Of a DNA stretch of 64,000 nt, positions 30,097 through 48,293 are shown in pieces; position 1 is the stretch's first letter, and each line of letters opens with the position of its first letter. The notes below the pieces were generated by a model that did no database searches, was not told the DNA's origin, and was given only the letters and a program-made list of their open reading frames with translations. This stretch comes from Fusobacterium varium (GTDB lineage Bacteria; Fusobacteriota; Fusobacteriia; Fusobacteriales; Fusobacteriaceae): positions 2,108,001 to 2,172,000 of the forward strand of contig LR134390.1 of assembly GCA_900637705.1 (NCBI GenBank), given 5' to 3'. Both the position numbers and the translations under genes were made by a program.

Positions 30097-30130
30097 ATTG
30101 AAAGTGATTATACTAAGGAGGAATGGCGTT

Positions 30131-31507
30131 ATGAAAATAGGTCTCTTATCATCAAATGTCCAAAAGAGGCGTGACATGATTCTCAATGGAAATATTCTTA
30201 ATACTTTGCTTTTTTTATCTCTTCCAACTGTTTTGATGGGTATGGTTTCATCCCTCATACCATTATCAGATGGATTATTTTTAAACCATACCTCAGGATA
30301 CTTAGTAGCAGCGGCAGTTGGTTTTGGGCAGCCTATAATCAACATACTTAATGCTTTGTCGTTAGGGTTAGGAGTAGCTTCCATGGCCATCGTTGGTCAG
30401 ATTAATGGAACTTGAGATTTAGAAAAAGTAAAAAAAGTTTCTACTCAAATTATGGTATTTGCATTTTTTATAGGTATTTTAGTTGCTCCTACTTCTATTA
30501 TTTTTGCATCTATTGTATCACAAAATATAAGCCCTGAAATAGCTCATCAAGTTTTTCTCTATTTGAGTCTTTATTCAATTGTTATTCCATTATTATTTAT
30601 GGCTGCGATATATAATGCAATAAAAAATGCAACTGGACAGCCAGAAGCAACACTTATTAGAATAATAATTTTATTGCTTCTGAAAATTATATTCAATACT
30701 TTGTTCCTAGCTATTTTTCATCTTGGAATAATTGGAGCTGTTATGGCTTCCCTTTGTTCATATATAATCATTGCTATCTGGATGTTTTATGATTTATTCA
30801 TAAAAAAAAGTGAAACACAGCTTATTTTAAGAGGTTATTATCCAGATTTTTCTCTATTGAAAAAAGTTTTAATATTAGCTCTTCCTTCCATGATTACTTA
30901 TTCATTGATAAATTTTGGATTTTTCTTAATTAATATGGAGGTAGAAAAATATGGTGCAATAGTACTTACAGCTCAAACTATTGCAAGTAATATCAATACT
31001 ATGTGCTTTACTCTTCCCTCTTCTATTGGTACTACTGTAACAACTATGGTCAGTATGAATATTGGAGCTGAAAAGCCTAAAAATGCTGAAAAGTCTTTTA
31101 AATATGGTTCGCTAGTAAGTTTGGTCATTTCTTTCATTCTTATTGCAATATTTCTTCCAAGCAGCAATTTTCTAGTAAGATTATTTCAGAATCATGAAGA
31201 GATAGTAAAACTTGCTGATCATTCATTGAAAATATATACTTTTTCTATTATAGGTTTTGGCTTATTTATGGTTTCACAGGGGGCCTTTATAGGTCTAGGA
31301 AGAACAAGACTTCCTCTGATTATGGGACTTTTAAGAGTGTGGCTGATAAGATATATTTTTATCATAATAACTAAAAAATGGCTTGGAGTTGACTCAGTAT
31401 TTTGGGGAAATCTTGTATCCAACTGGGTTGCTGGATTGTTGTTCTATTATATTGTTACAAAAACTCCATGGGTATCAGTAATAAAGAAAGATAAACATTC
31501 AATATAA
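30131..31507 (+). pseudogene. MATE family efflux transporter with in-frame TGA
   Basis: One frame from ATG 30131 (ribosome site AAGGAGG at 30115-30121) to TAA 31505-31507 encodes about 458 codons, full MATE length with 12 transmembrane segments, but TGA at 30413-30415 interrupts it after 'GQINGT'. Relatives usually have Gly there ('NGTGDLEK'), so a GGA to TGA change is likely. Both sides are otherwise in good condition and in the same frame. MATE proteins export drugs and cationic compounds in exchange for Na+ or H+. Unlike the other broken genes, this is a substitution and not a run-length change, so it is the best candidate for a real inactivating mutation. Confidence 0.85.
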
Positions 31508-31825
31508 TAAAAAAGAGGATACAATTTAGAGATTAAATAAATTTTAGAAATTTTTTATTAGAAGAAAATGGTAAAAAAGTTAAATTATGTTTTAGAAGTT
31601 TGGAAATTAAAAAGGTTTGTGTAATTAATAATATTAATAAAACGTGAAAAACAGTATGTTTGAGTGAAGCTCTTATAATTCTTCATCTATTCTTCTATGT
31701 TTTAGGAACGAAATTAATAACAAATCTTTCTACTGGAAAACTTCTAAAGCTATATTTATACTTGTAATTATCTTTCTCTAATATCTAAAATTTATGTTTC
31801 TCTTTTAATTATCCTCTTTTTTATT
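31506..31825. repeat. Long palindromic dispersed element, copy 1
   Basis: 320 bp bounded by a perfect 16-bp terminal inverted repeat AATAAAAAAGAGGATA (31506-31521 and, inverted, 31810-31825). The similarity of the two arms continues inward for about 120 bp with gaps, so a transcript would fold into one long imperfect hairpin. There is no coding frame. A second copy in the opposite orientation lies at 47983-48269; shared blocks include 'AAATTAAAAAGGTTTGTG' in one arm and 'TTAATAACAAATCTTTC' in the other. The element starts in the stop codon of the MATE gene and fills the convergent gap to hslU. Best read as a MITE-like or REP-like repeat. Confidence 0.75.
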
Positions 31826-31858
31826 TTAAGAATACATTAGCTTAATTTTTTCTTTCTT

Positions 31859-33175
31859 TTAAAGAATATATTTATCTAAATTTTCTTCTTCATTTTCTTT
31901 TTTAAATATTTTTTTAACAAAATTTGCATCTATGCTGACTTTTTTCTTTTTCTCATATGGAGCTTCATACATTACTTCTCTCAAGAGTTCTTCTACTACT
32001 GCCGAAAGTCTTCTTGCTCCTATATTTTCTACTTTTTCATTCATTACAGCTGTTATATCTGCTATTTTTTCTATAGCCCCTTTTGTAAAAGAAAGCTCTA
32101 CATTATCAGTTGCCAGCATTGCTGTATATTGATCAAGAAGATTATACTCTACATCTGTCAGTATTTTTACAAAATCCTCTCTCTCTAAATTTTTTAATTT
32201 TACTCTTATTGGAAATCTACCCTGTAATTCAGGCATTAAATCTGATGGAGAACTTTGTGTAAATGCTCCAGCTGCAATAAAAAGAATATGATCTGTCTTT
32301 ACAGGTCCGAATTTTGTCATAACTGTGCTTCCTTCTACTATTGGAAGAATATCTCTCTGTACTCCCTGTCTTGATACTTCCCCTTTTCCTACTCCATCTC
32401 TTTCAGCTATTTTATCTATTTCATCAATAAAAATAATCCCATTATTTTCTACATTTTCTATAACTTCTTCATTTAAAGAATCTAAGTCAAGCTTCTTCTC
32501 TACCTCTTCATCTATCATTATTCCAATAGCATTTTTCACAGTAGTTATCATTTTCTTACTTTTTCCAGATACTCCTGCCATTACTTGATCCAGTATACTT
32601 CCAATACCAGAAGTATCATCATTACCAGATACAACCTCAATTATTGGAAGATCTAAGTCTTTTCTAGTTTTTTCTATTTCAACTTCTGTGTCATCATATT
32701 TTCCTTCATCAATATCCTGCATAATTTGAGCTTTCTCTTCATCATTAAGAGAATCATATGGTTTTACAAGTTTTGCTGCTTTTTCTAATGCAGTTTCATA
32801 AGCCTCTTCTCTTAACTCATTAAATTTTTGTTCCTTCATTTTTCTGTAAGTAAGAGAAGTCAAATCTTTTATTATGCTTTCTACATCTTTTCCAACATAT
32901 CCTACTTCAGTATATTTAGTAGCTTCTACCTTTAAAAATGGTGCATCAGCTATTTTAGCTATTCTTCTTGCTATTTCAGTTTTCCCCACTCCAGTTGGTC
33001 CCATAAGAATTATATTTTTAGGAGTAATTTCCTTTCTTAATTCCTCATCTTCTATACTTTTTCTTCTATCTCTGTTTCTTAAAGAAATAGCAACATTCTT
33101 CTTAGCTTCATCTTGTGATATTATATATTTATTAAGTTCTTCTACTATCCTCTTGGGAGTAAGCCCTCTGTTCAT
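31859..33175 (-). CDS. hslU: HslU, ATPase subunit of the HslUV protease
   Basis: 438 residues, normal length. The N-terminal 'LTPKRIVEELNKYIISQDEA' leads into the AAA+ core with Walker A 'GPTGVGKTEIARRI', Walker B 'IIFIDEIDKIA' and the C-terminal sensor 2 'ENIGARRLSAVVEELL'. The I domain is in the middle (about residues 110-230). HslU unfolds substrates for the threonine protease HslV. hslV is not next to it here; the upstream neighbour is rdgB. The start ATG has a GGAGA site. Confidence 0.96.
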   Translation of the reverse strand: MNRGLTPKRIVEELNKYIISQDEAKKNVAISLRNRDRRKSIEDEELRKEITPKNIILMGPTGVGKTEIARRIAKIADAPFLKVEATKYTEVGYVGKDVESIIKDLTSLTYRKMKEQKFNELREEAYETALEKAAKLVKPYDSLNDEEKAQIMQDIDEGKYDDTEVEIEKTRKDLDLPIIEVVSGNDDTSGIGSILDQVMAGVSGKSKKMITTVKNAIGIMIDEEVEKKLDLDSLNEEVIENVENNGIIFIDEIDKIAERDGVGKGEVSRQGVQRDILPIVEGSTVMTKFGPVKTDHILFIAAGAFTQSSPSDLMPELQGRFPIRVKLKNLEREDFVKILTDVEYNLLDQYTAMLATDNVELSFTKGAIEKIADITAVMNEKVENIGARRLSAVVEELLREVMYEAPYEKKKKVSIDANFVKKIFKKENEEENLDKYIL

Positions 33176-46748: not shown

Positions 46749-47987
46749 TTGGATTTCACTTTAAAATTAAAACAAGAAATGAAGCTTTCTCTGACACAAG
46801 AAATGAAAATTTCTATGAATATACTTCAAATGTCTTCATCTAACCTAAAAGATTTTATTGAAAAAGAAGCCTTAAAAAACCCAATGTTAGAAGTAACATA
46901 CTCTACTCCCTCATCTAAATATAATTCTGATGAAGAAACTACTTCACCTTTTGACTTTATTATTGAAGAAAAAACTTTAATTGACTTTCTAGAAGAGCAA
47001 CTTGGATATTTAAAAATTTCACCTAAAATAAAATCTATTTGTGAATATGTAATAAATAATCTAGATGATAGAGGATACCTTTCCATATCTAAATTAGAAA
47101 TAAAAAAAGCTCTTAAAATTTCTACAGCCCAACTGAAAGAGGCTATGGATATTATATATACATTAGAACCTGCTGGTATTGGTGCAGAAAATTTAAAAGA
47201 AAGTCTAAAAATACAGCTTATAACAAAAGATATTATTGATGAAAAGCTCTTTACCCTTATAGATGATTATTTAGAAGAACTAGGAGATAGAAAATATTCC
47301 CTCATAAGTGAAAAATTACATGTATCAGTTGAACAAATAGAAGATTATCTTGATATAATAAAATCATTGGAACCTATCCCTGCAAGAGGATATTTTGTAG
47401 GAAATAGAACAAATTATGTAGTTCCAGAAGCTAAAATAGAAATAGTTGATGATGAATTAACAGTTACATTAAATGAAGAAGCTATACCTAAAATAAAAAT
47501 AAACAGTTCATATAAATCTACAAATTCATTATCTGATAAAAATAATATGTATACAGCTATAAATCTGATTAAAAGTATTGAAAAAAGATATATCACTCTT
47601 GAAAGAGTTTTAAATCAACTTATAGTAAAACAAAAAAATTTCTTTTTTAGAGGAAAAGACTTTTTACAAACTTTAACTTTGAAAGATATAGCAAAAGAAT
47701 TAAATCTTCATGAATCTACTATTTCTAGAGCAATTAGAGATAAATTTATAGAAACTCCTCAGGGAATAATAGCTATAAAATCTCTTTTCATATTAAATTC
47801 TGAATGTCTTGAAATAAAAAAAACTATAGAAGAACTCATAAAATCTGAAAATAAATCTTCACCTTTATCTGATGAAAAAATATCCTTATACTTCAAAAAT
47901 AAAGGCTGTAGCATTGCCCGAAGAACCATAGCAAAATATAGAGAAGAACTTGGAATTCCTTCTACCAGAGAAAGAAAAAGAAAATAA
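46749..47987 (+). CDS. rpoN: RNA polymerase sigma-54 factor
   Basis: 412 residues from TTG 46749, chosen because GAGGTGG lies at 46736-46742 and the protein then begins 'DFTLKLKQEMKLSLTQEM', the normal Gln-rich region I. The core-binding domain and the DNA-binding domain follow, and the C-terminus carries the RpoN box 'RRTIAKYREELGIPS'. Sigma-54 needs an AAA+ activator; one is encoded at 51532-52872, and a matching -24/-12 promoter lies at 51299-51314. A palindromic element begins at its stop codon. Confidence 0.95.
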   Translation: MDFTLKLKQEMKLSLTQEMKISMNILQMSSSNLKDFIEKEALKNPMLEVTYSTPSSKYNSDEETTSPFDFIIEEKTLIDFLEEQLGYLKISPKIKSICEYVINNLDDRGYLSISKLEIKKALKISTAQLKEAMDIIYTLEPAGIGAENLKESLKIQLITKDIIDEKLFTLIDDYLEELGDRKYSLISEKLHVSVEQIEDYLDIIKSLEPIPARGYFVGNRTNYVVPEAKIEIVDDELTVTLNEEAIPKIKINSSYKSTNSLSDKNNMYTAINLIKSIEKRYITLERVLNQLIVKQKNFFFRGKDFLQTLTLKDIAKELNLHESTISRAIRDKFIETPQGIIAIKSLFILNSECLEIKKTIEELIKSENKSSPLSDEKISLYFKNKGCSIARRTIAKYREELGIPSTRERKRK

Positions 47988-48269
47988 AAAGAAGCTAAGT
48001 TTAAGAATAGTATAATTTTAGAATTTTTCCAGTAGAAAGGTTTGTTATTAATTTTGTTCATAAACACATAAGAATAGATGATGGATTACAGCAGCTCTAC
48101 TATTGCATCTCAGTAATTATAGCAGTTAAAACTAACTGCTTAATTATTGAAAACTTGCTTTGCTCAAACATACTATTTTTATGTTTTACTTACTTCATTA
48201 ATTGCACAAACCTTTCTAATTTCCAAATTTCTAAAATTTACTTTATCTTTCTAAATTAGCCTCTTTTTT
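47983..48269. repeat. Long palindromic dispersed element, copy 2
   Basis: About 287 bp, inverted relative to copy 1 at 31506-31825. The left end reads AATAAAAAGAAGCTAAG and the right end, inverted, AAAAAAGAGGCTAA. Both arms pair imperfectly over ~90 bp with shared blocks 'AGAAAGGTTTGT' and 'ATTTTAGAA'. The centre differs from copy 1 and includes its own hairpin AGCAGTTA / TAACTGCT. A block of ~50 bp present in the arm of copy 1 is absent. It begins at the rpoN stop codon and fills the convergent gap to the AtuA-like gene. No coding frame. Confidence 0.72.
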
Positions 48270-48293
48270 CCCCAGTGTTTTTATATAGCTTTT

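Follow-up and report, generated by a model that had tools for sequence, protein, structure and literature searches.

A dispersed family of terminator-dwelling, probably mobile palindromic hairpins in Fusobacterium varium

Terminator hairpins are targeted by the IS1182-family element IS1272, whose insertion is blunt-ended, deletes part of the stem-loop, and produces no target duplication (PMC4923244). Stable DNA mini-hairpins have been described as well (PMC10527192). We analyzed a window of Fusobacterium varium DNA (the whole stretch of 64,000 nucleotides, contig LR134390.1), in which an earlier note had described the non-coding block at 31506-31825 as a MITE- or REP-like palindromic element. 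That description held as far as a genome-wide palindromic family is concerned and failed in that there was no target duplication and the REP features tested were missing. The MITE features present were a short length (70 to 300 bp), the lack of coding sequence, dispersal, and inverted-repeat ends, while against the REP hairpin of 20 to 40 bp with a GTAG or CGTC foot the element measured 100 to 265 nt and ended in approximately GGATGACTAAAAAGC. Its mode of insertion, into terminator hairpins with loss of the stem-loop and no duplication, matched that of the IS1182 family (PMC4923244). Since no target was duplicated, the REP features failed, and no parent was found, among the IS1182 and Y1 families tested, in the genome containing the window (G000), we did not class the element as a MITE or a REP; by analogy, it works like a MITE with the insertion mode of IS1272.

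The features of the locus are collected in Table 1. The 16-bp terminal inverted repeats of the block were perfect, as had been claimed, the right one being the exact reverse complement of the left, and the proposed long hairpin was borne out by RNA folding of 31480-31850, which gave -83.8 kcal/mol (z -6.5) versus -55.7 ± 4.3 kcal/mol for dinucleotide shuffles (0 of 100 as stable). The block does start at a stop codon, its left repeat overlapping the last two bases of a TAA; it fills the gap to the convergent gene only in part, with about 34 bases of the gap lying outside it. From sequence and general knowledge, we take the upstream gene to encode a MATE-type efflux protein and the convergent one to be hslU-like. 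The MATE-type gene lies in two ORFs (105 and 351 amino acids) at 30098-31507, and its orthologue in the relative G008, beside the element L031, is one ORF of 467 amino acids; the split is probably a frameshift. The outer arms of the block aligned weakly to the ends of the element, the left arm to the left end (4 of 2,000 mononucleotide shuffles aligned as well) and the right arm to the right end (12 of 2,000). Judging from the sequence, the focal copy is probably nested inside the relic of another, older copy. It is an atypical member of its family, with a damaged tip: the right half of the conserved tip motif is missing from it and intact in L031. Because the focal copy retains just half of the motif, the latter had been overlooked in the earlier note.

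Table 1. Features of the two copies in the window and of the genes flanking the first (coordinates in the window)
Feature	Position	Strand	Basis
Left half of outer terminator-like stem, AATAAAAAAGAGGATA	31506..31521	+	Sequence; paired in minimum-energy fold
Right half of outer stem, TATCCTCTTTTTTATT, with T-run	31810..31825	+	Sequence; paired in minimum-energy fold
Left arm, probable older shortened copy enclosing core	31522..31570	+	Weak alignment to element's left end
Right arm, probable older copy	31764..31811	+	Weak alignment to element's right end
Core, copy 1	31577..31763	+	Covariance model R1, G000:C1:2139577-2139763, 114 bits, E 2.6e-20
Left half of conserved tip motif, TGTTTGAGTGAAGC	31657..31670	+	Sequence; alignment with L031
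Main ORF of upstream gene (presumably MATE-type efflux), ending within left stem	30452..31507	+	ORF list
Convergent gene (presumably hslU-like)	31859..33175	-	ORF list
Copy 2 (long form, L022) with terminator-like stem, between convergent genes	47986..48271	-	blastn; junction display
Core, copy 2	48002..48249	-	R1, G000:C1:2156002-2156249, 117 bits, E 6.6e-21
Tip motif of copy 2, variant TGTTTGAGCAAAGCAAGTTT	48151..48170	-	Sequence

The homologous block of opposite orientation that had been placed at about 47983-48269 was recovered by blastn (67% over 314 bases, 82% over 95), and the suspected genome-wide family was found by blastn and a covariance model as dispersed copies in the genome itself and in its relatives. 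In G000 (a single contig of 3,302,398 bases), there were at least 68 partial blastn matches to the element, and the covariance model of the core gave 32 matches at E <= 0.01, that is, about 30 copies; in the close relatives G008, G009, and G010 it gave 32, 28, and 16, respectively. Diverged families of similar length were detected with the model in G001, G002, and G005 and in G034, which belongs to another genus. By length, the copies fell into three classes, of about 102, 190, and 265 nt, which have their ends in common and differ in the amount of hairpin tip held, and the mean column identity of 17 mostly non-orthologous copies was 87% over about 175 nt. None of the outcomes named beforehand as speaking against the element (just two copies, no copies in relatives, or a conserved 3' UTR of unrelated origin) came true. 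The remark that no repeat of this kind has a name also stood, as no description was found in the literature by sequence or by topic. Rfam, searched at the gathering score and at permissive E-values, gave nothing relevant to the element, and the phage and plasmid collections searched with it gave no match. A chance origin of the focal block and its family is excluded, and what we describe is a real, dispersed, and probably mobile family of terminator-dwelling hairpins.

Nearly every copy was situated between the two complementary halves of a terminator-like stem, with an A-tract and a T-tract. The sequence of this bounding stem is private to the site (e.g., AGTGGGTAAC...GTTACCCACTTTT or AGAGGTTGAT...ATCAACCTCTTTT); the 16-bp repeat, called terminal in the earlier note, is not a constant transposon end and forms the base of such a stem, its sequence being different at nearly every copy. 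The copies usually start 10 to 30 bases past the stop codon and show the features of an intrinsic terminator, namely, a stem and then a T-run behind a stop codon, and none lies between divergent genes. When the 63 copies with both neighbors called were counted, with orthologues entered separately and genes called as open frames, 45 gaps were convergent, 18 were tandem, and 0 were divergent. For G000 only, the numbers were 18, 7, and 0, versus 5, 26, and 6 for the gaps of the window (Fisher p 4e-6). The repeats are almost certainly a dispersed family living in terminators.

The flanks of 16 elements were then located in the other three genomes (one genome per species), and the sites were read. 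At the L003 site, the element is present only in G000, and the three relatives (L142, L148, L133) have plain terminators of 24 to 25 nt; the left flank is homologous up to AAAAG and the right flank up to CTTTTT, and therefore one stem-loop replaced another without any duplication. At the L063 site, two relatives are plain (L109, L124; AGAGCCTAGCTGATGCCAGACTCT) and one is filled, and further orthologous sites with plain terminators were L098 and L121 versus L062 and L138 versus L022. The target-site duplication that one could have anticipated was seen at none of the empty versus filled orthologous sites, compared at the species level; the stem-loop had been replaced instead. Shrunken relics were found too, with 73 nt versus 263 (L154), 68 versus 190 (L126), and 30 versus 129 (L129). 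We consider it very likely that the element was exchanged for the stem-loop of the host terminator. Counting against a mobile element, the stems differ among element-free relatives too, and some of the exchange may have another cause; moreover, with one genome compared per species, no fresh within-species insertion was seen. The plain terminators at L098, L121, L133, L142, and L148 have unrelated stems within flanks about 90% identical, and therefore terminator turnover is general in the F. varium group, and that of the stems is very fast.

Filled sites also changed in place. The orientation was inverted relative to the flanks in at least one genome in 9 of the 20 groups of orthologous filled sites (one of the nine, L002/L073, being a weak match). 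The elements L009 (G000) and L050 (G008) are 99.4% identical over 175 bases yet inverted, and since their flanks are merely 87 to 88% identical, this near-identity suggests that the hairpin was recently transferred or converted by itself. At the L007 site, G000 has a long tip and the three relatives a short one, and private changes of the arms are common to all.

Two transposase families, IS1182 and Y1, were tested in G000. The IS1182 transposase (NF033551) was absent from this genome, and Y1_Tnp (RAYT, PF01797) was absent from G000, G002, G005 (which holds 37 motif copies), and G011. An IS1182 parent within G000 was rejected on two grounds, the absence of the transposase and the element ends (approximately GGATGACTAAAAAGCTAG), which do not match those of ISFv2. 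IS1182-family matches, of the 1.78-kb ISFv2, numbered about 49 in G010 (L087 to L094), with two broken pieces in G008 and none in G000 or G009; the ends of ISFv2 are themselves terminator-like palindromes. IS1182-type ends were found on elements in G005, G034, and G035 only, and the IS1182-type repeat GGCTGTTGCAAATT, absent from G000, terminated elements of G005 and G035. In G005, G034, and G035, this type of stem was also borne by plain terminators, so that the elements may either have been moved by IS1182-type enzymes or have settled in terminators made by such enzymes. The chance that the family is moved by a hairpin-targeting transposase seems to us slightly below even. The leading candidate, if a rather doubtful one, is a transposase of the IS1182 family, since elements in two other species have IS1182-like ends.

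Families whose arms differ have in common a tip, TGTYTGA-RY-GNA-RY-GAGTTT, in which the RY positions change together (AC..GT, GC..GC, GT..AC). Its center, RYGNARY, has the pattern of d(GCGAAGC), a stable DNA mini-hairpin. The tip was found in 42 of 98 Fusobacteriota genomes, in up to 42 copies each, with the reversed-pattern control near zero, and a GC-rich variant was found in at least 117 stretches across Proteobacteria, Bacteroidota, and Firmicutes; whole-genome counts in genomes picked for holding the motif reached 73, with the control at zero. It caps locus-specific stems, a perfect 8-bp stem being present in 52 of 85 matches versus 1.2 expected. In viral contigs, the GC-rich motif occurred just 6 times. 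The Bacteroidota tip hairpins (L238 to L317, e.g., L284, L292, and L307) have a common outer stem and T-run, AGCCTTGATTTTTTG, and a repeated internal-loop module, GCGTTAAGAA / TTTTAGC. In Ralstonia (G104, L378 to L382), the motifs often form outward-facing intergenic pairs 250 to 500 bases apart, and inspection by eye of the genes between paired motifs of this genome revealed no candidate transposase. It is possible, and we propose it tentatively, that the F. varium repeats form one branch of a mobile-hairpin superfamily found bacteria-wide, whose mark is a conserved tip of the d(GCGNAGC) mini-hairpin type rather than the arms or ends; its members would settle in the 3' ends of genes, take over their terminators, and be served by a novel enzyme recognizing folded single-stranded DNA. 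The tip is all that the hairpins have in common bacteria-wide, and their descent from one family is conjectural.

Several explanations were weighed, and that of ordinary overlong terminators, alike by chance or convergence, can be taken as refuted: all copies are indeed terminator-like, but a mean column identity of 87% among 17 copies, most of them non-orthologous, across about 175 nt is beyond convergence. A selected functional RNA or mRNA 3'-end element, such as a protein-binding hairpin setting mRNA stability, is a more serious rival. In the 17-copy alignment, 98.4% of cells pair and 19 of 49 pairs are changed on both sides, compared to 5.9 ± 1.6 in shuffles; covariation of this strength, together with the conservation of the internal loops and the tip, would suit an RNA, and it could come either from selection for folding or from a replication process in which one arm is copied onto the other. 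The location at 3' ends speaks for an RNA too, as does the orientation of the tip in the tandem gaps of the F. varium group, which is sense to the genes in 15 of 18 (orthologues counted separately). Against these stand the flipping of orientation between orthologues, the gain and loss of sites between close species, the lack of an Rfam match, and the lack of strand bias with respect to tandem genes among other fusobacteria (7 sense, 7 antisense) or bacteria-wide (12 and 19). This lack of bias outside the F. varium group, together with the absence of a recurrent neighboring gene or protein at the motif loci, favors an element of DNA. We judge the RNA explanation improbable, and we are fairly confident that the element acts as DNA.

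Among the DNA-level explanations, REP-type elements mobilized by a RAYT (Y1 HUH) transposase would account for dispersed, extragenic, hairpin-forming palindromes, but the absence of Y1_Tnp from G000, G002, G005, and G011 and a size and terminator siting unlike those of REPs (PMC3733652) leave them very little probability. Gene conversion among terminators, in which single-stranded or replicating terminator DNA would switch template at shared A- and T-tracts and copy whole stem-loops between loci without any transposase, is the strongest competitor, although we hold it to be unlikely. It agrees with the exchange of whole stem-loops between retained A- and T-tracts, with the finding of both orientations and of tips swapped within conserved arms, and with the variation of stem sequence among element-free relatives as well; yet the flanking tracts shared are just about 5 to 9 bases long, and a tip conserved bacteria-wide suggests specific recognition over passive copying.

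The explanation that we favor, with some reserve, is that the repeats are non-autonomous palindromic mobile DNA elements which reside in intrinsic terminators and recycle them. The element would move as a folded DNA hairpin, and its recognition mark could be the tip, in which two base pairs flanked by GA/GA carry a GNA triloop. The enzyme, a structure-specific transposase or nuclease, would cut the target terminator near the base of the stem, remove the stem-loop, and join the element in its place. Once inserted, the element may serve as a terminator, possibly a bidirectional one, and since it would take over termination, it would do little harm. Flips, swaps of the tip, and shrinkage would come from ordinary palindrome instability, through template switching or hairpin cleavage. 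If this is true, terminators are a niche for a mobile element that supplies the very terminator it destroys, its near-harmlessness would let it persist, and the large differences in terminator stems between close species would be in part explained. By its sequence, the tip motif offers a way to search much of the bacterial tree for such elements and for the protein recognizing them.

Of the described systems, IS1272/TnSha1 of the IS1182 family (PMC4923244) is similar in that it enters terminator hairpins in both orientations, with the stem-loop lost and no target duplicated, and an IS1182-like end sequence is present on the elements of G005 and G035; these insertion sequences are coding, with TnSha1 measuring 3 kb, whereas the element described here is gene-free, and its long internal hairpin is conserved at the tip. 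The SPRITE, BOX, and RUP repeats of Streptococcus pneumoniae (PMC10969869) are likewise small, dispersed, and non-coding, one being terminator-like, and insert into one another; by their description (PMC10969869), they are set apart in that no stem-loop replacement, flips in place, or bacteria-wide tip is reported. REP sequences and their RAYT enzymes (PMC3733652, PMC6006769) are comparable as extragenic palindromes thought to move as single-stranded hairpins, but REPs are 20 to 40 bp long and tagged with GTAG or CGTC at the foot, whereas here a hairpin of 100 to 265 nt is conserved at the tip and no Y1 transposase accompanies it. The MITEs ERIC, NEMIS, bcr1, and RUP (PMC3733652) resemble the element in length (70 to 300 bp), non-coding nature, inverted-repeat ends, dispersal, and non-autonomy; unlike them, the element of the F. 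varium group has neither a constant terminal repeat nor a target duplication and is restricted to terminators.
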